A stretch of 64,000 nucleotides of DNA from Anaerococcus degeneri. GTDB taxonomy: Bacteria; Bacillota; Clostridia; Tissierellales; Peptoniphilaceae. Below, one piece after another: positions 31,681 through 57,950 of this stretch. The position numbers and the translations under genes are program-made. The DNA is taken from contig NZ_JAGGLO010000002.1 in assembly GCF_017874475.1 (NCBI RefSeq), positions 1 through 64,000 of the forward strand. Direction: 5' to 3'. The notes below the pieces were generated by a model that saw nothing but the letters and a program-made list of their open reading frames with translations, was not told the origin of the DNA and made no database searches. Within the stretch, counting starts at the first letter, position 1. Each line of letters starts with the position of its first letter.

Positions 31681-31687
31681 GAGAAAA

Positions 31688-31772: not shown

Positions 31773-31835
31773 ATCTTATTATACTGCTTTTGATGGAATT
31801 TGCTATTTTTTATTAAATTAAGATAATTTCTTACT

Positions 31836-40176: not shown

Positions 40177-42009
40177 ATGAAAAAAACAAAAATTATAGCC
40201 CTAGCTATGTCAGTAAGTCTTGTACTCGGAGGAGCCTACATCATAGACTCAAAAACCAACATAGCCTATGCTGAAGAAGAAAAAAACATCGCCCAACAAA
40301 TAGAAGAAAAAAAAGCTAATATTCAAGAACTTGAGAAAGAAAACTCAAAACTCGATAAAGAAGTTTCTGACCTAGAAAAAAATCTAGAAAATTTAAATAA
40401 ATTAAATAAGGAACTTGAAGTCTTAACTTCAGAAGCAGACAAATTATACGAAATTTATGCAACTAAATATGAAGAATGGGAAAGGCTAGATAAACTCGTT
40501 AAAGACGGTATAGCTAAGCGAGAAGCCTTATGCGACGAATATAATGCCTTGGTTGAACAGTTGAAAAATGACCCAACAAATAAAGATCTAGAATCCAAAA
40601 AAACTGCCAAAGCCTACCAATGGGGCGACCAAGTTGAAAAAGTAAAAGAAGATACCCAAAAAAGAACTGAGCAATATCTTGCAATGAAAGACGATGAAGA
40701 AAAATATGCAGAAGCCGACGCCAAGTATCTTGAGAAAAAAGCTGAAGTAAGCGAAGAAGAAGAAAAGACCAAAGGTATTTCTGAGAAAATCGAAGAAAAA
40801 AAAGAAAAAATAAAAAATAATAGCAGAAAAATCAATGTTCTAAAAGAACAAAGAAAAACTCTTGAGGATTTAAAATCCAAAGAGGATAAAGAAAATATAG
40901 ATGATAATGAAGACGGCGATGAAAAACAGAAACCTGTTGAACAGCAAATTGCTGATGATAAGAATAAACTTGATAAGCTAAAAGACGAAAACAAAAAACA
41001 AAATGAAGAAATAGATAAGTTAAAAGAACAAATGGTAGACACCCCTAGCCTAAGAGAAGAATTTGAAAAATTAAAAGAAAATAGGGATGCTAAATACAAT
41101 ATTTATGTAAATAAAAATAAAGAGCTAGATGAACGCAGGATGGAATATTCAAAGGCAAATGAATTAAAGAACGAACTAAAAAACAAATATAAAGATGCCC
41201 AAAAAAAACTCGATAAAGATCCAGGTAATGCAGCTCTACAAAAAGAAGTAGATGAAATATTAAAAAATTGGCAAGAGAATAATGAAAAGTTAGAAAAAGC
41301 CGAGCAAGCTTGCACAGAACTAGATAATGAAATAGATTCAATAAATAATGATTATAAAACCATTAATAAAAGATACAAAGAATTTAAAACTGACCTTGAA
41401 GCCAAAGAAGATAAAAATCAAGAACTAGAATTTAAAATAGGAGTAATAAACAAAAAAATCAAAAAAAATGAATCAAAAATAAAAGTCCTAAACAGCAAGC
41501 TAGAAGCTAACAATGCCAAAGTTCTTAATAAGTATAAAGAAAATGCTAATAAAGAAATTGACGGACTTTCTAACCTCAGCGAAGAGGAAAAGAAAGTGGC
41601 TAAGGATAAGGTTCATAAGGCCGATACTGTAGAAAAGGTCAACCAAGCCCTTGAAAATGCAAAGAAATTAGCTGAGAAAAATTTAGCTAAGGCCAAGGAA
41701 GAGGAAAGGAAGAATAAGGAGAAAAAAGATTATAATCCAATCCTTCCAGACCCAGACTATAATTACTACCTAGGCGGAGACAAGGACAAAGATACCAAGA
41801 AAAAGACCCTCTCAGCCAAGACTGTCCTCAGACTAAAAGAGGCTGTCGAGAGAAGCAAGACCGCCATTAAAGCAGCTGAGCTCCTAATGGAAATAGCTCC
41901 AAAGAAAGTAGCTGACGTCAAACCACAGCTATTACAACTAATCAAAAAATCCAAAGAACTTCAAAAAATAGCAGAAAAAATCCTAGCCGAAAATGGTTAT
42001 GCTTATTAG
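40177..42009 (+). CDS. Secreted coiled-coil protein with GA-module-like segment
   Basis: A 610-residue protein with a signal peptide (cleavage near AYAEEE, about residue 32). It is followed by about 420 residues of Lys/Glu-rich coiled coil containing two FEKLKENRDAKYN-like repeats, then a three-helix unit near 455-505 (NANKEIDGLSNLSEEEKKVA...ADTVEKVNQALENAKKLA) like the GA/FIVAR modules of albumin- or matrix-binding proteins. A Pro/Tyr linker (ILPDPDYNYYLGG) leads to a basic C-terminal helical tail. No LPXTG sorting signal is seen, so it is released or held non-covalently. Iron-dependent expression is implied by the Fur box. Albumin binding is unproven. Confidence 0.8.
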   Translation: MKKTKIIALAMSVSLVLGGAYIIDSKTNIAYAEEEKNIAQQIEEKKANIQELEKENSKLDKEVSDLEKNLENLNKLNKELEVLTSEADKLYEIYATKYEEWERLDKLVKDGIAKREALCDEYNALVEQLKNDPTNKDLESKKTAKAYQWGDQVEKVKEDTQKRTEQYLAMKDDEEKYAEADAKYLEKKAEVSEEEEKTKGISEKIEEKKEKIKNNSRKINVLKEQRKTLEDLKSKEDKENIDDNEDGDEKQKPVEQQIADDKNKLDKLKDENKKQNEEIDKLKEQMVDTPSLREEFEKLKENRDAKYNIYVNKNKELDERRMEYSKANELKNELKNKYKDAQKKLDKDPGNAALQKEVDEILKNWQENNEKLEKAEQACTELDNEIDSINNDYKTINKRYKEFKTDLEAKEDKNQELEFKIGVINKKIKKNESKIKVLNSKLEANNAKVLNKYKENANKEIDGLSNLSEEEKKVAKDKVHKADTVEKVNQALENAKKLAEKNLAKAKEEERKNKEKKDYNPILPDPDYNYYLGGDKDKDTKKKTLSAKTVLRLKEAVERSKTAIKAAELLMEIAPKKVADVKPQLLQLIKKSKELQKIAEKILAENGYAY

Positions 42010-42839: not shown

Positions 42840-42929
42840 ATAAGATCCTTTGATTTCAAAATTTAATCAGGTTTTCTTATATGTATTATATCACATTTAT
42901 AGCTAAAGTATATTTTTACATAAAAAGAA

Positions 42930-42946
42930 GTGGGCATTATGCCCAC
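42930..42946. terminator. Terminator hairpin, probably of the arc operon
   Basis: GTGGGCAT and ATGCCCAC are a perfect 8-bp palindrome with TTCTTTTTATG on the minus strand and CGTCTTTTTT on the plus strand. It is the first strong terminator beyond arcC. Confidence 0.75.
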
Positions 42947-42992
42947 CGTCTTTTTTCAGGAGTCTATTAAGTCTCTTTTATTTTAAGCAACG

Positions 42993-43202
42993 CCTTTCCT
43001 AAGGAACGTAATCTTTTTACAATCAATGCTCCTGTTCGTCGCATCTATTGTAAAAAATTACGGAAGGTTTCTCATCAATTTTCCTGCGGACTTTGTCCTT
43101 GTAAAATTGTGAGAATCGTTCAAATTTTGCCAACTGAAGCCCTATCCCGATTTGATGAAATCAAATCGATGGAAGGACTGATACTTTAGTGAAAATTTGA
43201 AC
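42993..43202. repeat. Nested inverted repeats at the end of arcC
   Basis: Two structures. First, CGTAATCTTTTTACAAT (43007-43023) pairs with its near complement at 43047-43062. Second, GTTCAAATTTT (43118-43128) pairs with AAAATTTGAAC (43192-43202), enclosing ACTGAAG/CTTTAGT and a perfect CGATTTGAT-GAA-ATCAAATCG hairpin (43148-43168). The last arm reaches the arcC stop codon. There is no open frame. It may be a mobile-element remnant or a 3' UTR structure. Confidence 0.6.
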
Positions 43203-44131
43203 TACCTTTCTATATAGGTTCCTGTCTCGCCTTTTAGGCCGTCTAGAGCTTTTTCTAGGGATGTGATTAAAGCTTTTGCGCCTTCTTTGCTTCTTACAAA
43301 GGATAGGGCTGCTTCAACTTTTGGCTTCATTGAGCCTTCTGCAAATTCACCATCTGCTAGGTATTTTTCAGCTTCTTCGATTGTGAGGCTTCCTAGCCAT
43401 TCTTGGTTTGGTTCACCGAAGTGGATGGCTACTTTTTCTACTGCTGTGAGGATTACAAGTATGTCTGCTCCTACTAGTTCAGCAACTTTTGCAGATGTGA
43501 AGTCTTTGTCGATTACTGCGTCAACGCCGATTAGTTTATCATTTTCTTTGATTACAGGGATTCCGCCGCCGCCTGCTGCTACTACGATCATTCCGTCGTT
43601 GTAGAGTTTTTCGACTGCTTTTTTCTCAATTATATCGATTGGTTTTGGACTTGGTACTACTCTTCTGTAGCCTCTGCCTGCGTCTTCTTTGAAGGTGAAG
43701 CCTTTTTCAGCTTGTTTGTCAGCTTCTTCTTTAGAATAGAATGATCCAATTGGTTTTGTTGGATTTTGGAAGGCTGGGTCTTCTTTGTCTACCAATACTT
43801 GGGTTACAAGTGATACTACGGTTTTGTCCATTTCTCTTTTTGCTAGTTCGTTTTCGATAGCGTTTTGAAGATGGTAGCCAATATAGCCTTGGCTCATGGC
43901 TCCGCATTCAGCAAATGGCATTTCAGCTGTTTTTGCTTCTGATTTGCTGGCTGTATCCATGGCTAGGTTGATCATGCCTACTTGTGGGCCGTTGCCGTGG
44001 GATATTATTACTTGGTTGCCTTCTGCTACTAGGTCTACGATTGATTTAGCAGTTACTGCTACTGCTTTTTTTTGCTCTTCTGGGCTGTTTCCTAGTGCGT
44101 TTCCGCCTAGGGCAAGTACGATTTTTTTCAT
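43202..44131 (-). CDS. arcC: Carbamate kinase
   Basis: A 309-residue amino-acid-kinase-fold enzyme making ATP from carbamoyl phosphate and ADP. Seen are KIVLALGGNALG at the N-terminus, VIISHGNGPQVG (about 40-51), the PF-ECGAMSQGYIGYHLQ helix, and the C-terminal ATP-site segment AGGGGIPVI (about 185). It is the last gene of the arcB operon and provides the energy-yielding step after ornithine carbamoyltransferase. Confidence 0.96.
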   Translation of the reverse strand: MKKIVLALGGNALGNSPEEQKKAVAVTAKSIVDLVAEGNQVIISHGNGPQVGMINLAMDTASKSEAKTAEMPFAECGAMSQGYIGYHLQNAIENELAKREMDKTVVSLVTQVLVDKEDPAFQNPTKPIGSFYSKEEADKQAEKGFTFKEDAGRGYRRVVPSPKPIDIIEKKAVEKLYNDGMIVVAAGGGGIPVIKENDKLIGVDAVIDKDFTSAKVAELVGADILVILTAVEKVAIHFGEPNQEWLGSLTIEEAEKYLADGEFAEGSMKPKVEAALSFVRSKEGAKALITSLEKALDGLKGETGTYIER

Positions 44132-44152
44132 TGTTTCTCCTTAAGTTTGATT

Positions 44153-45247
44153 TTAGTTGTTTAAGGCTCTGTCAACATTTCTGATAAAGTCTTGAACGTT
44201 TGTTACCATTGATACAGCTGTAACTGTTCCCCTATCTGATAGTTTGTTTACAGCGAATTCTTGGATGTCGATTGTGTACATGTATACTGGTCTTACTACG
44301 CCGTCAAATACGTTGTAGGATGGGGTCATATTTCCTGTTGCGATTGTGTAGAGGATTGCGCCCATCATGATGATTGTAGATGTTTTTCTAGCGTGTTTTC
44401 TCATTTCGTTTTGAGCAGCATATACGTTGTTGATTGTTTCAGGGAGTCCTAGTCTGTCACGGATTGTGCCTGCTATTACCACTGGAACGTCCATTTCAAC
44501 ACAAGCTTTCATGAAGCCGTCTTTTACAAGTCCGCTTTCTACAAGGGCTTTGGTTGAGCCGTATTTTCTTGCTAGGTTGATTGTTTTGTATAAGTTTTTG
44601 GTTGTGTTTTGTTCTTTTTCGAATTTTTCTTGGCCCCAAGTTGTGCCGTAGATTCCTTTTTCAAGATCGAATGCTGCAGTTTCTGTACCACAGAAGATTG
44701 CATTTACATAACCATTTCTTACTAGTCTTTCAAGAGCTGCTCTTGAATCTCTGTCGAGTGCTAGGGCCGCTCCTACGATTAATGTTACATAACCATTGTG
44801 TTCTTTTTCATATTTTAGTACTTCGTAGAGGTTGTCATAGTCAATTGAGAAGGCTGTTTCTCTTGAACGACCAGCTCTGAATGCGAAAGTGTCTTGGTGG
44901 GCATCTCCTTCTAGGAAGCCTTGGGTCCATACATAGATACCTTCTGAAGCATCTTCTGTACGTCCGATTACTACCTTGTCACCTTTTTTAAGGTTTCTAA
45001 ATTCAACTATGTTTACGCTTTCTTCACCTGGTGTGTCGTTTGCTACACAAACTGTATCCATTCTAGATTGAGCAGCTAATACCCATTTGTCATTTATTTT
45101 GAAGTATTCTGGATAAACTGAAAGAGCGTGGTAGTTTCTTGGGCTTAGACCATCTTCTTTTACTTCTTCTAGGGTTACATTTGGTGCATTTTTAAGAAAG
45201 TCTTTTTCAAAATCTGGGTGATGGTATTTTGGCATTTCAAATTTCAT
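44153..45247 (-). CDS. Ornithine cyclodeaminase-like (archaeal/AgrE C-terminal type), divergent paralogue
   Basis: A 364-residue protein paralogous to the next gene upstream, of the LOR/SDH-type family (TIGR00300, archaeal ornithine cyclodeaminase and the C-terminal part of cyanobacterial AgrE). The family pattern is present but eroded: the GGNA-ATHD motif reads GTETAAFDLEKG, GH-NHL reads TTKNLY, and GSIRDDGPLP reads GTIRDRLGLP. The end (VSMVTNVQDFIRNVDRALN) is well kept. It is probably a non-catalytic or altered-specificity partner of the 45247 protein. Its ATG overlaps that gene's stop by one base (TAATG). Confidence 0.7.
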   Translation of the reverse strand: MKFEMPKYHHPDFEKDFLKNAPNVTLEEVKEDGLSPRNYHALSVYPEYFKINDKWVLAAQSRMDTVCVANDTPGEESVNIVEFRNLKKGDKVVIGRTEDASEGIYVWTQGFLEGDAHQDTFAFRAGRSRETAFSIDYDNLYEVLKYEKEHNGYVTLIVGAALALDRDSRAALERLVRNGYVNAIFCGTETAAFDLEKGIYGTTWGQEKFEKEQNTTKNLYKTINLARKYGSTKALVESGLVKDGFMKACVEMDVPVVIAGTIRDRLGLPETINNVYAAQNEMRKHARKTSTIIMMGAILYTIATGNMTPSYNVFDGVVRPVYMYTIDIQEFAVNKLSDRGTVTAVSMVTNVQDFIRNVDRALNN

Positions 45248-46422
45248 TATTGTATCTCTCCTTCGTTTTTATCTGCTTTTTTGTCAGCTTCTACGTATTC
45301 CATTTCAGGAATTTCCATTTCTCTAGCAAAAGCCTTGTTTGCTGGGCTTATTAGAGCTTTTTCGCAGTTTACTACGAAATCTTGTACGTTTGTTACCATT
45401 GGCACGTATGCAAGATTTTCTCTAGCTGCTCCTACTTTGTGTACTACGTTTTCTGTTACGTCTACACAGTATAGGTAAACTGGTGAAATTTTTCCATCTT
45501 TTCTTACCCTATAGCTAGATGCCATGTTGGCTACTGATAGGGAGTGGAGCATGGTTGCTATACAAATAATTACTGTTGCCTTATCAAGTTCTTTCTTTGT
45601 TTCTGTAAGTGCTCTATCTTCATCGCCTATTACTTCTGGAAGTGGACCGTCATCTCTGATTGATCCTGAAAGTACAAATGGAACGTCCATGTCTGATAGG
45701 GTCTTGATGATACCGTCTTTTACATTTCCGCTTGCGATAAATTCTTTTATAGAACCAGTTGTTCTTACTTCGTTTAATAGGTCAAGGTGGTTATAGTGAC
45801 CCATTGGTTGATTTTCTTGGGTGTAGATATTTTGACCAAGAGCTGTATTTAAGAATCCACCTTCAAGGTCGTGGGTTGCCATAGCGTTTCCGCCTAATAG
45901 ACAGTTGATATAGCCATTTTCTGCTAATTGGTTTAGAGCTTTTCTAGTATCATAGTCAAATACTACTGAAGGACCTAGTACCCATACTATATAACCATCT
46001 TCTGAATCTCTTTCATGTTGTAAGAGTTCGAATAGGTTGTCATAGTCTTCAGAGAATGATGTTTCTACGGCCTTACCTGGTTTAGAATATACATCGTCTG
46101 GGAAGGCGTTGTTATGAACAAAAATGCCGTCTTCGATTGTTCCGTCTTCGCTTATTACGACTTTATCGCCTTTTTCTAGTTCTCTAATTTCTTTTACTAC
46201 AATTTTGCCGTCTTTTAGGACTGCAACGCAGTTTAAAGATGTATGTTCAGGTAGTTGCCATTCGCCATTAACTTTATAAAATGTTGGCATGTGGCGGGTT
46301 AAGTAGAAATCATCAGGTGCAACACCGTCTTTCTCTACTTCTTGTAGGCTAATGTCTGCTGCTTTCTTGAACTTTTCTTCTGAAAAGTCTGGTGTAACAA
46401 ATTCTGGTACTTTAAATTCCAT
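45247..46422 (-). CDS. Ornithine cyclodeaminase, archaeal/AgrE C-terminal type
   Basis: A 391-residue protein with the LOR/SDH conserved N-terminal region (APDDFYLTRHMPTFYKVNGE) and the nucleotide-binding part with family motifs GGNAMATHDLEGG (about 205-217), GHYNHLDLLNEVR, and VLSGSIRDDGPLPEV (about 277-291). Archaeal members convert ornithine to proline. Within an operon of catabolic arcB and arcC this is the expected next step for ornithine. It is unrelated in sequence to the classical ocd at 26429, so the genome has two kinds. The C-terminal 30 residues are an acidic tail. Confidence 0.78.
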   Translation of the reverse strand: MEFKVPEFVTPDFSEEKFKKAADISLQEVEKDGVAPDDFYLTRHMPTFYKVNGEWQLPEHTSLNCVAVLKDGKIVVKEIRELEKGDKVVISEDGTIEDGIFVHNNAFPDDVYSKPGKAVETSFSEDYDNLFELLQHERDSEDGYIVWVLGPSVVFDYDTRKALNQLAENGYINCLLGGNAMATHDLEGGFLNTALGQNIYTQENQPMGHYNHLDLLNEVRTTGSIKEFIASGNVKDGIIKTLSDMDVPFVLSGSIRDDGPLPEVIGDEDRALTETKKELDKATVIICIATMLHSLSVANMASSYRVRKDGKISPVYLYCVDVTENVVHKVGAARENLAYVPMVTNVQDFVVNCEKALISPANKAFAREMEIPEMEYVEADKKADKNEGEIQ

Positions 46423-46426
46423 TCTT

Positions 46427-48967
46427 CTACTCCTTATTTTTATTTTCTTTTAATTCGACAGTGAACTTATTTTCACAATCAAAATCCAAAGTTAATTCTG
46501 AGAATGCTTTTATTTCGCTTTCGAGATTTTTCTCGCAAATCAAAAAGTAAACATCCTGCTCTATAAGCTTCTTTAAGCTCCTAGCATCAAAACCTTCTTC
46601 CTTGGCATAGACGCCGAATTTATCAAAAAATCCGTCCGCATAGGAGAGTTTTATCTGTCTATCTGCTAGGGCTTTTTCTAACTCCCTGAAATTTAGGGAA
46701 ATAAGCTTATCTAATTTATCATCATCTAGAGGGCTTAGTTTAAAGACATAATCGACATATTTGCCAAAGTCTACGTCGAGTTTTTCTTTGACAAATTCAT
46801 CATAATCAGTATCTTCGTCTACAGTCATGGTTAGGACTACAATTGAGTTTTTAAGATTTATATCTCGTCCCTTATTGTCCTTGATTGTCCCGTCTTGGAT
46901 GATTTGTAGGACCAAGTTTTGCACCTCAAAGTGGGCGTTTTCGATATTTTCAAAAACCAACACACTATAAGGTCTAGTCCTTAATGCCTGGGTCAATACT
47001 CCTCCGAATTCGTATCCAACATAGCCAGGAGGGGCACCAATCAGCTTGGTGATTGATGACTTATCAGTAAACTCGCTCATATCGAAGCTAAGTAGGGATT
47101 TTTCTCCCTCATAGAGATAGTCTGCCAAAAGTTTGGCTATATAAGACTTACCCGAAGATGATGGTCCTGAAACAATAAAACTTAGGACTGGCCTTTTTCT
47201 CTCAAAGAGACCGCCTTCTGATATGATATAAGTATTTATAATCTTATCGATCATATCATCGCCGCCTACGAATTCTTCCTTAAGTTTTTCTCTAACAAGT
47301 TTAATAGAATCAAGTTTGTCATATTGGAGCTTAGACTTTGGCATTCCGCTCATCTTTGAAATAATATCTTTGACTTCCGAAACGCCAACTTTTGTCCTTA
47401 GCGGATAATATTCACCTTTATCCTCTATTTTCTTTAATTTTTCGCTTACTTTTTCTTTTAGACTTACGAACTTATCAAGGTTTTCAAAGTCTCTCTTATC
47501 CTTGGCTTCTTCTATCTCAAAGCCAATGATGTCGATTTCTCTTTCAAGCTTGACTAGACTTTCTTGTCTTTCTTTTTCTTTTTCATATAGGTCAGTTTTT
47601 TCAGCAAGTTCTTCTTCAAGCTTTTTAATCTCTTCTTCTTTTTCCTTGGACCTATGAGTCGATAAGCTGTCTTTTTCGTTTTTGAGAGCTATATTTTCCA
47701 TTTCAAGCTGGACAATTTTCCTATGGAGCTTGTCTAGCTCTTCTGGTTTTTGATCCCTTGCCATTTTTACCTGGGCACAAGCCTCATCGATTACATCTAT
47801 TGCCACATCTGGGAGTTTTCTTTCAGTCAAAAACCTCTTTGAAAGTTTAACCGCCTCTGTGATAGCAGGGTCTGTTATCTTTATCATGTGGTGGTTTTCG
47901 TATTTGGATTTGATTCCCCTCATGATGGCAATTGTCGTTTCAACGCTTGGCTCTTCGATTAGGATTTTTTGAAAACGCCTATCAAGGGCCTTGTCTACCT
48001 CGATGTGCTTTCTGTACTCTTCGATGGTAGTGGCGCCTATTGTTAAAATCTCGCCACGTGCCAGCATCGGTTTTAGCATATTGGCTGTATCCATTGTCCC
48101 ACTTGCAGATCCTGAACCTATTATGTTGTGGATTTCATCTATAAATAGAATTATCCTTCCCTTTGAGTCCTTTATAATTTCAAGGATTTTCTTAAGTCTT
48201 TCTTCAAAATCTCCCCTGTATTTCGCTCCAGCAACGAGGGCTGTCATATCTAGGGAAAATATAATCTTATCTTTTAAATCATCTGGCACGTCACCTGCCA
48301 CTATCCTCTGGACAATACCTTCAACTATGGCAGTTTTACCAACGCCCGCATCCCCGATTAAAACCGGATTGTTTTTTATCCTTCTAGATAAAATCCTGAT
48401 GGCGTTTCTGGTTTCTTCCTCCCTACCAATAACAGGATCGAGCCTTCCTTCGATGGCTTCCTTGGTGAGGACTGTCCCGTATTTTTCAAGGTTGATTATA
48501 GTTTCTTGGTCGACGCCCTTTAGTAGGTATTCGTTAAATTTCTTGGCAACTAATTCGTTAAAATTTTGATAAGTTAGACCGTGTGTCGCCGCAAGTTTTG
48601 CTGTTGGCATATCGGCTTCTCTTAGGAGGGCCAAAACCAAGTGTTCGGTCTTTATTTTTTCTTCAAACTGGTTTCTAGAAATTTCTTCTGCTATCAAAAG
48701 GGCTCTTTGGTAAGACCTAGATGTGTAAAGTGAGGAAATCCCCTTGGCTGACCTTAGTTTGGTCAGGGCATTTTCTGTATCATCCAAAACATCTTGGTAG
48801 ATTACCTTCAATTCCTTGAAATAGGTCCTTATTAATTTTTCCTCTAAGGTCAAAATAGCATAGAAAATGTGAAGGTCAGATACCTCTACGTTATTTTTTC
48901 TGATAGCAACCTTATTGGCTTCTTTAATAATTTCCACAGAAGATTGTGAATACTTACTTATGTCCAT
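46427..48967 (-). CDS. ClpB/ClpC-like AAA+ ATPase with degenerate second ATPase domain
   Basis: An 846-residue Hsp100 protein. The N-domain (1-150) and D1 look functional: Walker A GDAGVGKTA (about 210), Walker B ILFIDEIHN and Arg finger ALDRRFQKI. A coiled-coil middle region (about 420-540) follows. D2 has Walker A GPSSSGKSY but Walker B reads VLVFENIENAH where DE is expected, and the NRID arginine-finger region reads GKYVDYVFKL, so D2 should not hydrolyse ATP. No ClpP-docking IGF/LGF loop is seen. It lies between a membrane protein and the ornithine-enzyme pair in a metabolic operon, suggesting a dedicated chaperone for those enzymes (inference). Confidence 0.82.
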   Translation of the reverse strand: MDISKYSQSSVEIIKEANKVAIRKNNVEVSDLHIFYAILTLEEKLIRTYFKELKVIYQDVLDDTENALTKLRSAKGISSLYTSRSYQRALLIAEEISRNQFEEKIKTEHLVLALLREADMPTAKLAATHGLTYQNFNELVAKKFNEYLLKGVDQETIINLEKYGTVLTKEAIEGRLDPVIGREEETRNAIRILSRRIKNNPVLIGDAGVGKTAIVEGIVQRIVAGDVPDDLKDKIIFSLDMTALVAGAKYRGDFEERLKKILEIIKDSKGRIILFIDEIHNIIGSGSASGTMDTANMLKPMLARGEILTIGATTIEEYRKHIEVDKALDRRFQKILIEEPSVETTIAIMRGIKSKYENHHMIKITDPAITEAVKLSKRFLTERKLPDVAIDVIDEACAQVKMARDQKPEELDKLHRKIVQLEMENIALKNEKDSLSTHRSKEKEEEIKKLEEELAEKTDLYEKEKERQESLVKLEREIDIIGFEIEEAKDKRDFENLDKFVSLKEKVSEKLKKIEDKGEYYPLRTKVGVSEVKDIISKMSGMPKSKLQYDKLDSIKLVREKLKEEFVGGDDMIDKIINTYIISEGGLFERKRPVLSFIVSGPSSSGKSYIAKLLADYLYEGEKSLLSFDMSEFTDKSSITKLIGAPPGYVGYEFGGVLTQALRTRPYSVLVFENIENAHFEVQNLVLQIIQDGTIKDNKGRDINLKNSIVVLTMTVDEDTDYDEFVKEKLDVDFGKYVDYVFKLSPLDDDKLDKLISLNFRELEKALADRQIKLSYADGFFDKFGVYAKEEGFDARSLKKLIEQDVYFLICEKNLESEIKAFSELTLDFDCENKFTVELKENKNKE

Positions 48968-48973
48968 ATTTAC

Positions 48974-50149
48974 CTATCCTATCACCATAAATATAAGATG
49001 GGCAGCTATACCTGCTCCGAGTCCTCCTATAGTATGGCACAAAATTGCATTACCTGTCATTTCTTTTGTCTCTAAGGCGTCCATCATGGCTATGTGGGTT
49101 GATAAATAGCCTGACCAGCACATACAAATTGATGTAAATACTGCTATATCGTTTGCTGTCACAATGCCTCTGCCAGACATATCTGTTACAACACCAATGG
49201 CTGCTCCTGCAGAACCTAGGGCTGTAATTGGTACAGCTATGGCTTCTGGTGAGTTAAAACCAAAAAGTGGGTTGAATATAAAGGCAAGTTTTTCGCCTAT
49301 CATTGGTAATATTGCAATTCCTTGGTTGGCTTCGCCTGTATAACCGTTTGGTCCTGCTCCATTTGTAAGCATAACTACTAGGGTACAAATGAGGCAAACG
49401 CCTGGGATTATTGCAACACCCATGTCTACTCCGACCTTACCACCGTCTAGGAAGGCTGTTATAAACCTAGCTCCTGCAGAACCTTCTCTGACTTTTCTAT
49501 ATCCATCTGGTACGTTTCCTGCTCCCTTGGTTTCAACCATAGCTTCTGTGCCATAATATTTTTTGGTCCTGGAAATCATAAGTCTAACTGATATGATAGA
49601 ACCAACTACTGCACCGAGGAGGCCAACAAGGGCACCTTTAATCGCATTGTCAACTGGTAGGGCCATCATAGATGTAACTGTGATAAGACCCATACCAAAG
49701 GAAGTTCCTAGGTTGGTTAGGGCTGGCATCTGGTATTTTTTGAAATACTTTCTAAAGTTGTCATCTGCTGCAAGTGTTAGTATGGCTGGGTTATCAGACA
49801 TAAAACAATTTAGCATACCAAGAGAAGATGCACCTGGTAGGTCGTATATAGGCTTCATTATCTTTGAAACTAGCCTGTTTACTAAGGCAATAACGCCAAA
49901 TTCTGAAAATATAGCAGATATACCACCTGCTAAAACTGCAACGGCCATCAAATATAGGCAGACGTTCATCAAAAGGTCGTATGATGTCATCATCATAGTC
50001 TTGATCATATTTGTCCCGCCCATTATAGAACCCATATAGATAAAGAGGCCTAGGAAGGCTGCCAGAAATATAAATACCTCTGGGCCAACATCTTTCTTTA
50101 TGGTTTTATCCATTTTTAATTCGTCTCTTATTTCATTTAATTCTTCCAT
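48974..50149 (-). CDS. Membrane transport protein with nucleoside-recognition/GATE-like domains
   Basis: A 391-residue membrane protein with about eight to ten helices. Two GATE-like stretches are visible: GASSLGMLNCFMSDNPAILT (about 100-120) and the late FNSPEAIAVPITALGSAGAA. Such proteins are annotated as nucleoside-recognition domain proteins, but their substrates are usually unknown. In this operon, next to an AGCS symporter and arcB, an amino-acid substrate such as citrulline, arginine or ornithine is plausible (inference). It begins after a hairpin and abuts the Clp gene by 6 bases. Confidence 0.72.
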   Translation of the reverse strand: MEELNEIRDELKMDKTIKKDVGPEVFIFLAAFLGLFIYMGSIMGGTNMIKTMMMTSYDLLMNVCLYLMAVAVLAGGISAIFSEFGVIALVNRLVSKIMKPIYDLPGASSLGMLNCFMSDNPAILTLAADDNFRKYFKKYQMPALTNLGTSFGMGLITVTSMMALPVDNAIKGALVGLLGAVVGSIISVRLMISRTKKYYGTEAMVETKGAGNVPDGYRKVREGSAGARFITAFLDGGKVGVDMGVAIIPGVCLICTLVVMLTNGAGPNGYTGEANQGIAILPMIGEKLAFIFNPLFGFNSPEAIAVPITALGSAGAAIGVVTDMSGRGIVTANDIAVFTSICMCWSGYLSTHIAMMDALETKEMTGNAILCHTIGGLGAGIAAHLIFMVIG

Positions 50150-50202
50150 TAAATCATCCTTAACAAGATAAATCTTGAATTTATATTTTTTTCAAATGCC
50201 TT

Positions 50203-50239
50203 AACTAAAAATATCCGAAAGAATCGGACATTTTTAGTT
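50203..50239. terminator. Hairpin between the AGCS symporter and the membrane protein gene
   Basis: AACTAAAAATATCCGA and TCGGACATTTTTAGTT form a stem of about 15 bp with one mismatch around AAGAA. It could reduce transcription from arcB and the symporter into the downstream genes. Confidence 0.65.
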
Positions 50240-50271
50240 TTATGCATCTGTTAATTAAACTTTAGTTTAAT

Positions 50272-51642
50272 TTATTTTTCTTTTGCTCCTGGGTAATATT
50301 TAGGATTCTTGAAGAAGTCATCTACAAGTTCTCTAATTTCACCACTTAGAAGAATCATACCAACCATGTTGGTAAATACTACTAATCCTAGGGTCGCATC
50401 AAGGAATACACCTGCGTTATCAAATGATACGAATCCACCAAGAAGGATCATAGCACATGCTATAAATCTTACTATTTTACCTACTGTTGTACCAAATAGG
50501 TATTCACCTTGTTTTTCAGCGTAGAATACGATTACTACGATTGTAGAAAGTACAAATAGGAATAGTGATAGAGCTATAACAGCTGTACCGATTTGACCGA
50601 AAGCTGTGTTGAACGCTCTTTCAACTCCGATATCTTTCATGTCTGGGTTTTGCCATAGACCTGTTGTTAAAACAACTAGGGCAGAGATTGTACAAACTAT
50701 AACTGTATCAGCGATTACTTCAAATACGCCCCACATACCTTGACGGCATGGATGGTCTGTAACTGCTGTAGCGTGTGCGTATGGAGCTGAACCCATACCA
50801 GCTTCGTTAGAGTAGCATCCTCTAGCTGCACCGGCTTTGATAAGTGCTGAGATACCTGCACCTGCGATACCGCCGCCTACTGCTCTTGGGTTAAATGCGC
50901 CAACAAAGATTGCTTTGAAAGCTGCTGGTATTTGATTAGCGTGCATGATTATAACTACAAGACCCATGATGATGTATAGGGCTGCCATGAATGGAACCAT
51001 TTTTTCTGTTACTTGAGCGATTCTCTTGATTCCGCCGTAAGCTACGAGTACTACTAAGAGTGTAATTACTACAGCTCCTACTAAACGGCTAAGTCCTAAT
51101 TGTTCAAGTGGGCCTACTGCTGAGATTGTTTGTAGAGTGATTGATGGTAGGATTTCAAGCATGAAGAAAAATGATACTAAGAATCCCATGATTTTACCTG
51201 CTGTACCGCCAATACCTTTTTTGAATGTATAAGCTGGTCCACCTACGAACTCGCCATCTACGTTTTTCTCACGGTATTTAATACCTAATACGATTTCTGC
51301 AAATTTTGTTCCTTGACCGATAATAGCTGCTATCCACATCCAGAATACTGCTCCTGGACCTGCTGTAAATATAATTGATGGAGCAACTACGATATTTGCT
51401 GCACCTATTGATGAAGCAAGGGCTGCTGATGCTGCTTGGAATGGTGAAACTGAACCTTCGCCGCCAACATCTGATGCAAACATTTTTCCAAACGTTTGCT
51501 TAATAATAAATGGTAAGTATCTAAGTTGTACAAATCCCATTCTAAATGATATTAAAAGACCTCCGCCTAGTAATACTATAAGGATAGGCCATCCCCAGAA
51601 CCAACCTGTAAGTTTTGATATCATATCTAATATTGCTTGCAT
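50272..51642 (-). CDS. Sodium:alanine (AGCS family) symporter
   Basis: A 456-residue symporter with about eleven helices. AGCS signatures seen are GGGLLISFRMGFVQLRYLP (about 25-44), EGSVSPFQAASAALASSIG (about 60-78), IGQGTKFAEIVLGIKYRE and ARGCYSNEAGMGSAPYAHA. It imports a small neutral amino acid with sodium. Its place right after arcB suggests the operon's substrate or a co-substrate. It is preceded by a long structured leader and followed by a hairpin. Confidence 0.92.
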   Translation of the reverse strand: MQAILDMISKLTGWFWGWPILIVLLGGGLLISFRMGFVQLRYLPFIIKQTFGKMFASDVGGEGSVSPFQAASAALASSIGAANIVVAPSIIFTAGPGAVFWMWIAAIIGQGTKFAEIVLGIKYREKNVDGEFVGGPAYTFKKGIGGTAGKIMGFLVSFFFMLEILPSITLQTISAVGPLEQLGLSRLVGAVVITLLVVLVAYGGIKRIAQVTEKMVPFMAALYIIMGLVVIIMHANQIPAAFKAIFVGAFNPRAVGGGIAGAGISALIKAGAARGCYSNEAGMGSAPYAHATAVTDHPCRQGMWGVFEVIADTVIVCTISALVVLTTGLWQNPDMKDIGVERAFNTAFGQIGTAVIALSLFLFVLSTIVVIVFYAEKQGEYLFGTTVGKIVRFIACAMILLGGFVSFDNAGVFLDATLGLVVFTNMVGMILLSGEIRELVDDFFKNPKYYPGAKEK

Positions 51643-51665
51643 AATAATTCCTTTTTAATTTTATG

Positions 51666-51742
51666 GAGCCTTGGCCAATAGGTTTCCTCTTAGACTAATG
51701 AAGATTTTCAAGAATCTAAGTTTACTTCCTAAGGCCAGCCCC
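51666..51742 (-). other. Structured intergenic hairpin between arcB and the symporter gene
   Basis: Nested complementary blocks: TTGGCC with GGCCAG, TAGG with CCTA and CTTAGA with TCTAAG, leaving a 20-base loop. There is no T run, so it looks like an mRNA-stabilising or processing stem rather than a terminator. Confidence 0.5.
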
Positions 51743-51762
51743 ATCCTTGTATTTTTTATAGT

Positions 51763-51784
51763 CTAGTTTCGTCTAAAAACTAGC
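51763..51784 (-). terminator. Hairpin overlapping the arcB stop codon
   Basis: CTAGTTT and AAACTAG enclose a 7-base loop. The stem includes the arcB TAG stop and is followed by ACTATAAAAAA. Weak termination would lower expression of the downstream genes relative to arcB. Confidence 0.5.
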
Positions 51785-52772
51785 AAAGTGTTGCATACAT
51801 AACTGCTTTGATTGTATGCATTCTGTTTTCTGCTTCTTCAAATACTAATGATTGTGCGCTTTCAAATACTTCGTCTGTTACTTCTATTGATTCCATACCA
51901 TATTTTTCAAATATTTCTTGTCCAACTTTTGTTTCTTTATCGTGGAATGATGGTAGGCAGTGTAGGAAGATAGCTTCTTTGTCTGCGTTAGCCATAACTT
52001 CTTTTGTTACTTGATATGGTTTAAGGATCTTAATTCTCTTTTCCCATTCTTCTTTTGGTTCACCCATAGATACCCAAACGTCTGTGTAGATTACGTTAGC
52101 ATCTTTGCTTGCTGCGTCTACATCTTCTGTAAGTGTAACTGTTGAGAAGTTTTCTGCTGCGATTTTTTCGCATTCTTTAACTAGCCATTCTTCTGGGAAT
52201 AATTCTTTTGGAGCACATGCTACAAAGTCAACACCAAGTTTAGCACAAACTAACATTAGAGAGTTTGCCATGTTGTTTCTAGCATCACCAAAGTATACAA
52301 ATTTTAGACCTTTTAGACGTCCAAAATGTTCTTCGATTGTTAGCATATCAGCTAGCATTTGTGTTGGGTGCCATTGGTCTGTTAGACCATTCCATACTGG
52401 AACACCAGAGTATTTAGCAAGCTCTTCAACGTGTTCTTGTTTGAATCCTCTAAATTCGATACCATCATACATTCTACCAAGAACTCTAGCAGTATCAGCT
52501 ACAGATTCTTTGTGGCCGATTTGAGATCCTGTTGGATCAAGATATGTTACGCCCATACCTAGGTCATAACCAGCTACTTCAAATGAACATCTTGTTCTTG
52601 TAGATGTTTTTTCGAATATGATAGCAATGTTTTTGCCTTCAAGATATCTGTGTGGGATACCAGCTCTCTTCATGTCCTTGAAGTTTTTAGATAAATCTAA
52701 TAAGTATCTGATGTCCTCTGTTGAAAAATCCATTAATTTTAAGAATGATTTTCCTCTAAAATTCTTTGCCAT
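51780..52772 (-). CDS. arcB: Ornithine carbamoyltransferase, catabolic type
   Basis: A 330-residue transcarbamoylase. The carbamoyl-phosphate loop is [12 protein letters not shown] (about 55-66), followed by [31 protein letters not shown] motifs, the ornithine-site HPTQMLAD, and HCLPSFHD near the end. The sequence resembles catabolic ArcB more than anabolic ArgF, and it shares an operon with carbamate kinase, so it probably runs citrulline to ornithine plus carbamoyl phosphate. The ATG at 52772 has GGAGAG. The open frame upstream of it lies in the regulatory region and is not coding. No arcA is present in the window. Confidence 0.94.
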
Positions 52773-52860
52773 AATAATCTCTCCTTTATTATTATTTGTT
52801 ACCAATAGATTTTTAGTAACGATTTCACACTTATATAATATCACAATTTTAAAATCGGGT

Positions 52861-52888
52861 TCGGACAAAAATGTCGAATTTTTTTGTC
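52861..52888. promoter_or_regulatory. Candidate operator between arcB and its AraC regulator
   Basis: TCGGACAAAAA (52861-52871), followed by TGTCGAA and TTTTTTTGTC. The 11-mer is identical to that at 26284-26294 in the ocd/regulator region. The arcB -10 (TATTAT, 52835-52840) has no recognisable -35 box, fitting activation from this site. Confidence 0.5.
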
Positions 52889-53043
52889 AGAAATTTAAAA
52901 ATCCTCAAAAAGACCACTTTGATTGAAATTTTTTGGCAATTTAAGAAAAAGCAAACGTTTTTTTAAAAATATTATAAAAAAACCGCAAAAAATCTTGAAA
53001 ATAAAAAAAGAAAAAATACCATAATATAAGGAGGCTTTCTTTT

Positions 53044-54291
53044 ATGGGCAAAAAATATATAACCTTGCAGGATTCGTTTTCCTCATCTATGACCGAGTCA
53101 AACCTCATCAGTTTTGACATACAGTCAGACAACGGAAAAACCCTGCCCCTTATGCACAAGCACAGCAGATTTTTGTATATCCTAGAAGGAGAAGGCAAGA
53201 TTAAAATCCAAGATAAGGTCTATAAGATGGCGCCTGGCGCCGTTATCTCTATCCTTCCTTGGCAAACTTCAGAAATAATCGAAGTAGAAAAAAATATTTC
53301 CTACTACCTTTTAGTTTATAACTTTAATTTAATAAATATTTACACTAAAAGCCAGCTAAATCTAAATAAAGAAGAGGTTGACTTTATTAAGTGTCTCTAT
53401 TCGAGCGAATCAGCTCTTTATGATCTCGAAGCCTGCGATAAAATCGAGGAAATCTTTGAAGATATAAGAAAAGAAGTGGGGGTCCATTCCCTAAACCTAA
53501 TCATCCACATCAAGAAAAAATTCTCAACAATTTACCTTATGTGCAAGATAAGTGAGCTTTTGATAATCTACATGAGATATATAAACGACGATGACACCTT
53601 TGGAGAATCTGTCGCCGCAAGGCCTGAAAACATCTTTATGTATATGTTTTTAAACTCATCCAAGGACATAAGTCTTGAAGTCTTGTCTAAAATTTTTCTT
53701 ATGTCAGAATCGGCCATTAGCCAATATATAAAGGATGTGACAGGGCTTGGTTTTCTTGATATCCTCCATGAAATCAGGATTTATAAGGCAAAATTTCTTT
53801 TAAGCCACACAGATATGACCCTAAAGGAGATTGCAAAGGCAGTTCATTATTCAGATCCTGCCCAACTTTCCAAGGTTTTTCAGTCTAAACAAGCCATTTC
53901 TACCAAAGATTTTAGGCGACTTAACCAAATAATTGAAGGCAAGGAATCTTTCACTTTTAAGCCTGAAGATTTAAAACTCATTGACTTTGTCAATGAAAAC
54001 TATGCAGAAGACATTGATATAATGGAAGTTTCCAAAAAATTTGACATCACTCCGAGAAATATAAACAAGATTTTTGTCTATTTTATGGAACAAAACTTCT
54101 ATTCCTACCTCCACCAAGTAAGAGTCCATGCGGCTTGTGACCTCTTAGTAAACACTGACGAGCCAATCACAGATATAGCCATAGGTGTTGGTTACAATTC
54201 ACCAAAGACACTTTTGAGAAACTTTTTAAAACACGTAGGCATGACTCCATCAGAATTTAGGTCGGGTCATTTAGCAGACTTGCCAAAATAA
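53044..54291 (+). CDS. AraC-type regulator with cupin and two tandem HTH domains (arc-linked)
   Basis: A 415-residue paralogue of the regulator at 24956. The N-terminal cupin (HKHSRFLYILEGEGKIKIQD, about 39-58) is followed by a helical linker. The first HTH unit spans about 195-295 (LSKIFLMSESAISQYIKD and KEIAKAVHYSDPAQLSKVF) and the second about 305-405 (VSKKFDITPRNINKIF and TDIAIGVGYNSPKTLLRNF). AAGGAGG lies before the ATG. It is divergent from arcB, so control of the arginine/citrulline operon is the likely role. The inducer is unknown. Confidence 0.9.
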   Translation: MGKKYITLQDSFSSSMTESNLISFDIQSDNGKTLPLMHKHSRFLYILEGEGKIKIQDKVYKMAPGAVISILPWQTSEIIEVEKNISYYLLVYNFNLINIYTKSQLNLNKEEVDFIKCLYSSESALYDLEACDKIEEIFEDIRKEVGVHSLNLIIHIKKKFSTIYLMCKISELLIIYMRYINDDDTFGESVAARPENIFMYMFLNSSKDISLEVLSKIFLMSESAISQYIKDVTGLGFLDILHEIRIYKAKFLLSHTDMTLKEIAKAVHYSDPAQLSKVFQSKQAISTKDFRRLNQIIEGKESFTFKPEDLKLIDFVNENYAEDIDIMEVSKKFDITPRNINKIFVYFMEQNFYSYLHQVRVHAACDLLVNTDEPITDIAIGVGYNSPKTLLRNFLKHVGMTPSEFRSGHLADLPK

Positions 54292-55045: not shown

Positions 55046-55450
55046 CTATATATTTTTTTCGAGCTCTTCTAGAGCCAGACTTATTAATTTCTTCATAGAA
55101 TAATCGCTCACACCTACAATTACATTGTCATCGTGTAGGAAGGGGATCAAAATTCTTTTTGCCCTTGATGTAGAAACGGCTTCTGCCATTTTGCTGGTAA
55201 TTTCACCACACATAGAATTTGTAAGTAGGATTCCAATTGGGCCTATGATTATATCTGCCAGTTGGGCATTGTAAATCAAAGCATTTTCGCCTGTTGCTGC
55301 GCGAGTGGCACCTGCCTTTAACATGGCGCTTGTGGCGTGGGAATTTGTCCCAACACAGGTAATGTCTAAATCTTTATGGTTTTCTCTAATGGAGCTTACA
55401 AGCTGTTTGCCAAGCCCTCCGCCCTGGGCGTCAATAACTAATACTTTCAT
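55046..55450 (-). CDS. DUF3842 family protein
   Basis: A 134-residue small Rossmann-like protein of the DUF3842 family: KVLVIDAQGGGLGKQLV at the N-terminus, GTNSHATSAMLKAGATRAATGENA (about 35-58), and ADIIIGPIGILLTNSMCGEIT. The glycine-rich start suggests nucleotide binding. Function is unknown. It is typical of anaerobic Firmicutes. GAGGTT precedes the ATG. It is monocistronic. Confidence 0.88.
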   Translation of the reverse strand: MKVLVIDAQGGGLGKQLVSSIRENHKDLDITCVGTNSHATSAMLKAGATRAATGENALIYNAQLADIIIGPIGILLTNSMCGEITSKMAEAVSTSRAKRILIPFLHDDNVIVGVSDYSMKKLISLALEELEKNI

Positions 55451-55795: not shown

Positions 55796-56452
55796 TTATT
55801 TTTCGCTAGAAACTTTTTCTACATCTTCTTTTTTGCCCAGCAAAACAATCAGGTCATTTTTTTCTATTTTTATGTGTGGACCTGGATTTATAATTGTGCC
55901 CCCATTTCTTTCAAAAGCGACAACATTTAGGTTGTATTTATTTCTGAAATCCAAATCCATAAGATCCTTGCCTATCCAAGCCTGGTGGACTCTAACTTCT
56001 GCGAGTGAAAATTCATTAGAAAATTCTATAAATTCTAGGAGGTTTGATCCAGAAATTACCCTAGCTAGTCTCTCACCACTGTCGAGTTCTGGGAAAATTA
56101 TCTTGTCGGCTCCGATTTTTTCTAAAATCCTCTCGTGGGTGGCTGTTGTAGCCTTGGCAATTACTGTAGTTATCCCTGCATCCTTGCATAGCAAGGTAGC
56201 CTCGATAGATGCTTCGATGTTTGATCCTGTTGCAATTACTGCTATGTCGAAGTTTTTGATGCCCAAATCCTTCATAGCTTCTTCGTCAGTCATATCAGCC
56301 TGGGCGGCATAGGTCACTTGGTCGGCCATCCTTTGGACTTTGGTATAGTCCCTATCAACGGCCATGACTTCCACGCCTTTTTCAAATAATTTTTTAGCAA
56401 GGGCTGAGCCAAACCTGCCCAAACCCAATACTAGTACGTTTTTTTCTTTCAT
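55796..56452 (-). CDS. ktrA: Potassium uptake regulatory subunit KtrA/TrkA
   Basis: A 218-residue RCK protein. The nucleotide-binding Rossmann core reads VLVLGLGRFGSALAKKL (about 6-22) with a conserved acidic residue in MAVDRD, followed by the RCK_C domain (about 140-218). It gates the membrane subunit encoded by the next gene upstream in response to ATP/ADP or cyclic di-AMP, as known for Ktr systems. It follows ktrB by 9 bases. Confidence 0.93.
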   Translation of the reverse strand: MKEKNVLVLGLGRFGSALAKKLFEKGVEVMAVDRDYTKVQRMADQVTYAAQADMTDEEAMKDLGIKNFDIAVIATGSNIEASIEATLLCKDAGITTVIAKATTATHERILEKIGADKIIFPELDSGERLARVISGSNLLEFIEFSNEFSLAEVRVHQAWIGKDLMDLDFRNKYNLNVVAFERNGGTIINPGPHIKIEKNDLIVLLGKKEDVEKVSSEK

Positions 56453-56461
56453 ATTTTCTCC

Positions 56462-57808
56462 TTAACCTATACTTATAAAACTCTCTGGATACCTAATTAG
56501 GCTCTTTTTAGCCTTCATGCCAAAGGCAAAGGCCATGGTCATTGGACCTATACGACCCAAATACATGCACAAGGTAATTAAATTCTTGCCTGCATCTGTA
56601 AGTTGGGGTGTGATTCCCTTACTTGCCCCTACCGTTGCGAGGGCGGAAACTGTTTCATACAAAATATCTACAAGGGGTGCACTTTCTGTAATGGTGAGCA
56701 TAAAGCTTACAGAAATGACGATGACTATGGAAACCAAGAAGATTGCCAAGGCCTTTCTGACAGTTTCTGTACTTATATGTCTACCAAAAACAACTGGTTC
56801 GCTCTCGCCCCTTACAACTGCGTGGGTTGATAAAAATAGGACGCCGAGGGTTGTTGTCTTAATACCACCTGCGGTAGATCCTGGAGAACCTCCCACAAAC
56901 ATGAGCCCCATAAGCATAAGAGCAGTAGAATCCTTGATTTTTGATAAGTCTACAGAATAAAAACCTGCAGTCCTTGCTACAACTGATTGGAAGAAGGATT
57001 CAAGTATTGACCCCTTTAGGCTTTCATATTGGAGGACCCCGTCTTCGTTTTCCAAAAATAGGAACATTAAAGTTCCAAAAATTAGGAGGATGGCTGTTAC
57101 CATGAGAACCAATTTGGAGTAGGTTGATAATTTCTTAAAAGACCTCCTCCTAAAAAGTTCACTTGTCACCACAAAACCCAAACCACCGACAATTACAAGG
57201 GCACAAAGGGTGAGGTTGATTAACAAATCTTCCCTAAAAGGATAAATAGAATCTCCCAAAATATCAAAACCAGCATTACAAAATGCGGAAATCGAGTGAA
57301 ATACCGCATACCAAACGCCTTTGCCAGCCCCATACAAGGGCACAAATTTTATAGAAAGGAGGATGGCTCCTAGGATTTCTGTCGCAAAAGTGAAAGCCAA
57401 AACATATTTAAAAAGGACAATCATGCCCTCAAGACTTTCGACATTTAGCTGTTCCTTTAGGATTTGCCTAGACTTCATTCCGATTTTCTTGCCTAGAATC
57501 AAAGGAATAATTGAAGCCAAACTCATGACCCCAAGTCCTCCGATTTGGATTAGGATAATGATTATAATGTGGCCGTAGGTGTTCCAATGTTCGAGTGTAT
57601 TAACGGGAGTGAGGCCCGTTACACAAGAAGCACTTGCTGCCACAAATAAAGAGTCGACCAAGGGTGTCGCCTGGCCAGATTTGGTAAAAAATGGGAGGGA
57701 TAAAAGTAGGCCGCCCACAGTAATAAGGATAGCAAAACCCAAACTCAAGACCATTGGCGGGTTAAGGCTAATCTTATCGTATAATTTATTGATAAAGTTT
57801 TTGTTCAT
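56462..57808 (-). CDS. ktrB: Potassium channel-like membrane subunit KtrB/TrkH
   Basis: A 448-residue TrkH/KtrB-type K+ translocating subunit with repeated membrane-pore-membrane units. Selectivity-loop glycines are in ASCVTGLTPVN (about 70), FCNAGFDILG (about 195), VARTAGFYSVD (about 290) and TVGASKGITP. The ATG at 57808 has AGGAG; the open frame 21 codons upstream is not needed. It is divergent from the DUF2207 gene and forms an operon with ktrA. Confidence 0.93.
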   Translation of the reverse strand: MNKNFINKLYDKISLNPPMVLSLGFAILITVGGLLLSLPFFTKSGQATPLVDSLFVAASASCVTGLTPVNTLEHWNTYGHIIIIILIQIGGLGVMSLASIIPLILGKKIGMKSRQILKEQLNVESLEGMIVLFKYVLAFTFATEILGAILLSIKFVPLYGAGKGVWYAVFHSISAFCNAGFDILGDSIYPFREDLLINLTLCALVIVGGLGFVVTSELFRRRSFKKLSTYSKLVLMVTAILLIFGTLMFLFLENEDGVLQYESLKGSILESFFQSVVARTAGFYSVDLSKIKDSTALMLMGLMFVGGSPGSTAGGIKTTTLGVLFLSTHAVVRGESEPVVFGRHISTETVRKALAIFLVSIVIVISVSFMLTITESAPLVDILYETVSALATVGASKGITPQLTDAGKNLITLCMYLGRIGPMTMAFAFGMKAKKSLIRYPESFISIG

Positions 57809-57950
57809 AATAGCTCCTATAAGTCTATGATACCTCGAGAGGAATCTTACCACCAATAAGACCCAGGTCAAAGCCTATTTGCAAAGTTATTTTTATACAA
57901 TTAATTATGTTACCTGGTTTTTTCTTGTATAATATTTTAAAGGAGGATTT

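Follow-up and report, generated by a model that had tools for sequence, protein, structure and literature searches.

The adjacent genes ocd1 and ocd2 of Anaerococcus degeneri encode paralogous proteins of one cyclodeaminase family, and each has lost invariant residues that the other keeps. They lie in a 64,000-nucleotide stretch of contig NZ_JAGGLO010000002.1 (the whole stretch is called the window below), in a minus-strand cluster whose seven open frames are transcribed in the order arcB, agcS, a gene for a CD0519-type membrane protein, a gene for a ClpB-like ATPase, ocd2, ocd1 and arcC. This order, first read in an initial annotation, is borne out by the open frames and by curated models. 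Because the losses are complementary, we predict that the two proteins join in a heteromer whose active site is composite; that Ocd1 and Ocd2 form a heteromer seems quite probable from their sequences. The ATPase, an Hsp100 linked to the pair, is given the name clpO here. The pathway is an ordinary one, from citrulline to ornithine, ATP and proline; it is the enzyme that is unusual.

Family and fold of Ocd1 and Ocd2

Both proteins pass the cut-off (440 bits) of NF052526 (ODC_var; NCBIfam, June 2026), a model named “putative NPN-dependent ornithine cyclodeaminase”, where NPN is the nickel-pincer nucleotide. The scores are 446.7 bits for ocd2 (45247..46422, minus strand) and 465.2 bits for ocd1 (44153..45247, minus strand). 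The NPN idea is not new, as the names of NF052526 and TIGR00300 already carry it; the name of NF052526 is silent on a heteromer or an Hsp100. With the ornithine cyclodeaminase model TIGR00300, ocd1 and ocd2 remain below the cut-off of 410.8 bits (194.7 and 204.0 bits), and they match PF21570 at 164 and 166.8 bits (cut-off 27).

The initial annotation had related the paralogues to archaeal-type ornithine cyclodeaminases, and both profile and structure matches agree, showing kinship to archaeal and ArgZ-type enzymes and placing the two proteins in a cyclodeaminase family. In the PDB, both match 3c2q (LOR/SDH of Methanococcus maripaludis, an archaeal ornithine cyclodeaminase of the TIGR00300 type), and they also match AgrE and ArgZ in the C-terminal part of these. 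The AlphaFold model of ocd2 (m038d76ba5871, pLDDT 86.8) has this fold in common with them (Z 37.3 to 3c2q, 33.9 to ArgZ and 31.0 to AgrE; 33-35% identical), and that of ocd1 (m379e2451225c, pLDDT 79.9) matches 3c2q with a Foldseek E-value of 3e-29. The ocd1 model is uncertain at residues 117-135, 204-209, 211-213 and 339-343, and the uncertain stretch around 204-213 adjoins the site of the canonical GHxNH motif, which this paralogue has lost.

Outside the family, the nearest folds listed for the ocd2 model are deoxyhypusine synthases. The Trypanosoma brucei structure 6dft ranks first (Z 16.8 over 215 residues) and is effectively tied with others at Z 15 to 16.5; for the ocd1 model, Foldseek ranks 8put first among the non-family folds. 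A passage in PMC7581365 describes trypanosomatid deoxyhypusine synthase as being made of two paralogues, DHSc and DHSp, in whose heterodimer one site is live and the other dead. By analogy, a related fold would fit a design in which two chains build the active site. However, DHSc/DHSp catalyses another reaction and is 9% identical, and DHSp alone lacks catalytic residues, whereas the losses described here are reciprocal.

Neither ocd1 nor ocd2 matches Lar_N (PF09861), at an E-value threshold of 0.1. LarA chains are also absent among the 50 rows listed in the structure comparison, which covered only Foldseek's own matches (VIA-align) and so is compatible with kinship to the LarA fold. The lactate racemase superfamily of LarA may have the cofactor in common with the pair, but not this domain match.

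Conservation and reciprocal residue loss

Of the 249 genomes searched in the order, NF052526 matches 68: 44 with two adjacent copies, 23 with a single copy, and one (G241) with two contig-end fragments. The total of 45 pair genomes used below includes G241, whose fragments may be one gene. The tandem pair is therefore conserved in relatives, as the cluster's initial description called for. The one NF052526 model takes in the single-copy form as well as ocd1 and ocd2. A tree of 103 rows, which leaves aside L062 (G101; its gene had no called open reading frame), the single-copy G200, G201, G207, G236, G241 and G243, and G214, divides the paralogues into two well supported clades, ocd1 and ocd2, of similar inner order. 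Of the single-copy relatives, four group weakly (90/52) with the ocd1 side, while L090 branches at the base. The simplest reading of this tree, for which no root was inferred, is that one duplication gave ocd1 and ocd2.

To follow the active site, we took as reference those columns that do not vary among 11 canonical rows and 5 single-copy ones, which gives 62 strict invariants. A residue was counted as kept if at least 80% of a clade's rows have it and as lost if fewer than 20% do. By this measure, 25 invariants are kept in both clades, 11 in ocd1 only, 13 in ocd2 only and none is lost in both, the other 13 being intermediate (Fisher p 0.024). The invariants kept in ocd1 only are R62, M63, F121, F123, Q279, I302, A303, G305, L336, D338 and G340, and those kept in ocd2 only are L133, P151, N179, H184, L195, G208, H212, L251, S254, D258, G259, P260 and H293. 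Thus, ocd2 keeps the histidines H184, H212 and H293 and the RDDGP motif (with D258) and lacks residues of the R62, M63 and D338 kind, while ocd1 keeps the latter and lacks the conserved histidines. Neither clade has the complete ancestral set in one chain, since ocd1 has lost 13 and ocd2 11 of the 62. By contrast, the archaeal, AgrE and ArgZ enzymes, which share invariant residues with the pair, are single chains with the complete set.

Other settings give a similar division (27 kept in ocd1 only, 26 in ocd2 only and 3 lost in both, of 172 invariants; p 0.016). The ten most divergent pair loci, which were left out of this count, of the one above and of a looser one discussed later, repeat the pattern when used alone (32, 23 and 6 of 172; p 0.040). 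The simplest reading of these patterns is that the active sites of an ancestral homomer were built from two chains, and that each duplicate would now supply half of a site. Two independent ornithine cyclodeaminases, as the initial annotation had it, are unlikely, because each paralogue has lost family invariants that the other keeps. An assay of the 45247 product alone with ornithine and NAD might well find no activity, as the partner, and possibly a nickel-pincer cofactor, would be missing.

The pair-linked Hsp100

The gene clpO (46427..48967, minus strand) matches PF17871 and PF07724. Like the ClpB disaggregase, its product is a two-ring Hsp100 with lid and D2-small domains. However, it is not a ClpB equivalog, scoring 765.5 bits with TIGR03346 against a cut-off of 1232.1, and its N domain is borderline (Clp_N 20.6 bits, cut-off 20.7). 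A true ClpB above the cut-off (1273.3 bits) is encoded elsewhere in the genome, which makes clpO an extra copy and rules it out as the only ClpB. A further Hsp100, ClpC-like by our label, is at 33713-36154 in the window. The presence of an Hsp100 in a fermentation operon had been called odd from the start, and this oddity has gained in weight, since the extra copy accompanies the pair in many relatives.

A profile built from 12 Hsp100 copies of such clusters was run over the 249 genomes. In 17 genomes, it scores 1239-1421 bits, and all of these copies lie some 6 kb or less from the pair. In two other families, four genomes have a pair-adjacent ClpB at 969-1009 bits as well as a second ClpB, and all remaining matches, housekeeping ClpB among them, reach at most 955.4 bits. 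Four more Anaerococcus genomes (L038, L043, L044, L050), a second lineage of the genus, have an Hsp100 of another type a few genes from the pair; its ring 2 motifs are intact, and its ring-1 pore loop reads GLRG instead of KYRG. An Hsp100 gene directly follows the pair in Facklamia languida (L139, Aerococcaceae), where the CD0519 protein gene is also present, and in a metagenome-assembled genome of Bacillota (L138). The Facklamia block looks like one that moved horizontally.

In a tree of 55 Hsp100 rows, one label change separates 29 pair-linked rows (27 genomes; one row is from Facklamia) from 24 housekeeping ClpB rows. The 55 rows represent 52 different sequences, as L132/L037 and L141/L044 are the same genomes twice and L229/L123 the same gene twice. 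A tree that groups the pair-linked Hsp100s in one clade and leaves the two ClpC-like rows out of it is not rejected (p-AU, from the approximately unbiased test, 0.397). Chance neighbourhood is ruled out by this single change together with the linkage seen in Facklamia and in further families of the order. Judging by the sequences, the pair-linked Hsp100 appears to have travelled with the enzyme pair between bacteria.

All 17 clpO rows have intact ring 1 motifs and both pore loops. In their ring 2, the Walker B pair is altered (DE to EN in the window's copy) and the sensor-1 asparagine is lost, as is the arginine finger in all 13 rows looked at; clpO therefore does not have Walker A, Walker B, sensor 1 and arginine finger intact in both rings. 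The other pair-linked Hsp100 types retain their ring 2 motifs. Given the linkage and these motifs, we see an even chance that ClpO acts on the Ocd complex.

Association with nickel-pincer nucleotide genes

The A. degeneri genome carries larE-larB-larC1-larC2 at a site other than the operon. In five relatives (L039, L042, L048, L073, L083), genes for LarE, LarB and LarC adjoin the pair, and in a sixth (L040) they do so on the opposite strand. BLAST matches to larB and larC are near the pair in L144, and matches to larB, larC and larE are near the single-copy gene of Peptacetobacter hominis (L209).

We counted LarE at an E-value of 1e-30 and LarA at hits of at least 100 bits, which retains 60 of the 74 genomes with a LarA match. 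LarE occurs in 34 of the 45 pair genomes, 17 of which have no LarA hit at that threshold. Within the genus, it is found in 16/16 pair genomes versus 1/15 others. The raw association between pair and LarE over the 249 genomes has p 1.5e-9, with kinship ignored. Pair and LarE are on one contig in 24 of the 34 genomes and within 20 kb of each other in 10 (binomial p 1.4e-9, again ignoring kinship); by our reading, these ten fall into roughly five lineages. One lineage (G013, G015, G063) has pair, clpO and lar genes together and no Lar_N match in the genome. Among the controls, Methanocaldococcus jannaschii and Haloferax volcanii have matches to NF052526 (below cut-off), LarE and LarB, and none to Lar_N.

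According to a passage of PMC11796402, larB, larE and larC occur without larA in about 15% of genomes, and a non-LarA NPN-binding protein of another fold is considered likely. For many of the pairs, the gene associations make NPN dependence likely, and we lean towards NPN being used in this genome too.

Three side observations concern the lar genes. In Anaerococcus, LarC is split over two open reading frames, larC1 and larC2 (L213, which is G000:C2:139000-152000; L048 3754-5090), and in L073 it is a single one. A frameshift between larC1 and larC2 is known in lactobacilli. In L039, L042 and L048, a gene for a siderophore-type binding protein (best NCBIfam match below cut-off) adjoins larC2, along with one for what we read as its permease (L048 1576-3757 for this stretch); the two possibly serve in nickel uptake. 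Lastly, DUF3842 (PF12953), of unknown function, is encoded at 55046-55450 of the window (minus strand), in L073 (5571-5993), in L083 (17665-18093) and also in L209. It is found in 67 of the 249 genomes; LarE occurs in 46 of these, and in 20 of the 46 the two lie no more than 4 kb apart. DUF3842 was rejected as a part of the pair system because it tracks LarA (41/67) more closely than the pair, and it may be an accessory of the NPN pathway.

The operon and its surroundings

Curated models confirm the catabolic gene set that was proposed initially. The first gene, arcB (51780..52772, minus strand), encodes an ornithine carbamoyltransferase (TIGR00658 437.9 bits, cut-off 280.85; NF003286/PRK04284 528.3 bits, also above cut-off); translation more likely begins with the ATG at 52772 (330 aa, AAGGAG upstream) than at 52868. 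It is followed on the same strand by the Na+/amino-acid symporter gene agcS (50272..51642; TIGR00835 359.7 bits, cut-off 272.65; PF01235) and by the gene for the CD0519/CD1768-family membrane protein, a putative transporter (48974..50149; NF049989 580.3 bits, cut-off 300). The last gene, arcC (43202..44131, minus strand), encodes a carbamate kinase (TIGR00746 391.8 bits, cut-off 358.25). The intergenic gaps in the order of transcription are 137, 122, 6, 4, -1 and 21 bp, so that the last five genes are tightly packed. A pattern scan found a terminator-like hairpin 3′ of arcC (42929..42947, minus strand), which is moderately informative given that 22 such sites were found in the region and 8.5 are expected.

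The region from 43202 to 54291 had been delimited as a minus-strand operon. This holds for the seven genes, but the interval also contains a divergent gene on the plus strand for an AraC-family regulator (53044..54291; PF12833 117.2 bits, above cut-off), which possibly has a cupin-like sensor (Cupin_2 24.7 bits, below the 27.2 cut-off). The regulator is divergent beside the cluster in several relatives too. Likewise, arcA is absent from the operon, as first noted, but not from the genome: an arcA-family match of 470.7 bits, just below the 489.1 cut-off, on another contig (G000:C10:65490-66689) rules out its loss. In G015, an arcA match above the cut-off adjoins the cluster (C1:1471491).

The best 80 of 539 confirmed relatives were kept, and among these the closest named one is Anaerococcus lactolyticus ATCC 51172, with identical gene order and an ocd1 that is 97% identical. 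Elsewhere in the window are a SAM riboswitch (31660-31773, minus strand; 56.9 bits) and a plus-strand gene (40177-42009) for a 610-aa protein with, by eye, a signal-like start and coiled-coil-like repeats. Potassium-transport genes at 55796-57871, which we label ktrB-trkA-like, adjoin the DUF3842 gene, and genes with the same label adjoin or are near the single-copy ocd gene in Tepidibacter (L147, L149).

Proposed mechanism

In the pathway that we propose, citrulline would be imported, or formed from arginine by the ArcA encoded elsewhere. ArcB would convert it into ornithine and carbamoyl phosphate, from which ArcC would make ATP, and the Ocd1-Ocd2 complex would turn ornithine into proline and ammonia. 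Ocd2 would bring the HDLE, GHxNH, RDDGP and LH residues and Ocd1 the SRMD, FxFR and D-R-G residues, such that each heterodimer would have one composite site and one dead site. The hydride carrier would be either NAD+ or NPN, the latter supplied by the LarE-LarB-LarC operon at its separate site. As to ClpO, ring 1 would hydrolyse ATP while ring 2, presumably non-hydrolysing, would hold the substrate; the protein would most likely dismantle inactive Ocd complexes that are misassembled or have a damaged cofactor.

The arginine deiminase (ADI) pathway operon has arcB, arcC and a transporter in common with this cluster. However, it has arcA together with arcB and arcC. In the ADI pathway, ornithine is exchanged by ArcD; here it would be processed further.

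Evenly balanced, in our judgement, is the explanation as a whole, namely a fermentation operon for arginine or citrulline with a heteromeric ornithine cyclodeaminase and a dedicated ClpO remodeller. Ornithine as the substrate is fairly probable. More tentative, and rather doubtful in its entirety, is the strictest form of the proposal: an ornithine cyclodeaminase that depends on NPN and is obligately heterodimeric, one of its sites being composite and the other dead, and that has a co-inherited Hsp100 “activase” in which one ring is a non-hydrolysing holder of substrate.

Alternative explanations

Several findings weigh against this proposal. With a looser setting, the residue count is less striking (14 kept in ocd1 only, 14 in ocd2 only and 1 lost in both, of 80; p 0.086), and complementary loss could instead reflect two different functions. 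The free Hsp100 tree is 2.1 log units better than the one-clade constraint, and 19 of the 45 pair genomes, some of them on short contigs, yielded no Hsp100 linked to the pair; the Hsp100 is therefore accessory, not indispensable. Regarding the cofactor, the A. degeneri genome also has LarA, which could explain its LarE. In eleven of the 45 pair genomes LarE is lacking, and none of these eleven is on the list of genomes with LarB, so NPN cannot be a strict requirement unless it is salvaged; LarE is missing from 16 of the 23 single-copy genomes as well. The control Synechococcus elongatus has LarE and LarB and neither Lar_N nor NF052526, and so there are LarA-free cases for which this family offers no explanation.

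The link between pair and LarE was also rejected as statistically secure, because phylogenetic pairing gives 3 same, 0 opposite and 4 neutral of 7 (p 0.25). Without genomes that have LarA, the result is 3.5 same and 0 opposite of 6. The pairing tree covers 61 of the 249 genomes and 32 of the 45 pair genomes, and it flatters the link, since of the 11 pair genomes without LarE it includes just 2. On the same tree, LarA versus LarE gives 4 same and 0.3 opposite of 9 (p 0.125). LarA itself occurs without LarE in 18 of 60 genomes, and a missing LarE is therefore not decisive.

The alternative that survives best, although we consider it unlikely, is that of two separate enzymes: ocd2 would be an ordinary NAD+-dependent cyclodeaminase, ocd1 would serve another substrate or as a regulator, and the Hsp100 would be a general chaperone that is incidental in the operon. 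The canonical histidines and RDDGP of ocd2 suit this explanation, as does AgrE, whose structure 6lrg is titled as containing ornithine and NAD+, and so do the eleven pair genomes that lack LarE. Yet ocd2 is not an intact canonical enzyme, as ocd1 keeps the 11 strict invariants that ocd2 has lost, and no treed genome holds a member of one clade without one of the other. An incidental chaperone is also hard to square with a distinct Hsp100 lineage that stays linked to the pair even where the hosts are unrelated.

Alternatively, the pair could be an NPN enzyme for an amino acid other than ornithine, with the arc genes as mere neighbours in some lineages. Pair, clpO and lar genes occur in L039, L042 and L048 with no arcB or arcC in the 20 kb that were fetched, and in the fetched DNA few single-copy relatives show an arc gene. 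We regard this explanation as distinctly unlikely, given that NCBIfam names the canonical members ornithine cyclodeaminases, that one structure binds ornithine according to its title (6lrg), and that many pair loci include arcB or arcC.

That ClpO is a captured disaggregase paralogue in decay, with no tie to the enzyme, would agree with its degenerate ring 2 (in L045 and L046 the ring-2 Walker A is gone as well) and with an apparently frameshifted copy in G125, but is improbable indeed, since ring 1 motifs and both pore loops persist over long branches and all 17 copies above 1239 bits have open frames (the stop in G152 merely ends its 819-aa frame) in the vicinity of the pair.

Significance

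Within the reach of our searches, we found no publication that describes the reciprocal decay of the two paralogues, or an Hsp100 lineage that is inherited with them and has one degenerate ring. A search for literature linking NPN with ornithine or cyclodeaminase found no such paper among the matches listed, most subscription journals being outside its reach. Among the matches listed, there was nothing on this cluster, and the papers that name both ornithine cyclodeaminase and ClpB name the cyclodeaminase once each.

One candidate family of non-LarA NPN-binding proteins could be tested with the compact set that this cluster provides, because the lineage of G013, G015 and G063 joins pair, clpO and lar genes without Lar_N. 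The reciprocal decay of the two paralogues would represent a bacterial case in which a homomer became an obligate heteromer. An Hsp100 that is inherited with a single enzyme would raise the question of whether protein unfoldases take part in the repair of cofactor enzymes. If the proposal is true, one metabolic enzyme of the NPN cofactor class would have an Hsp100 dedicated to it.

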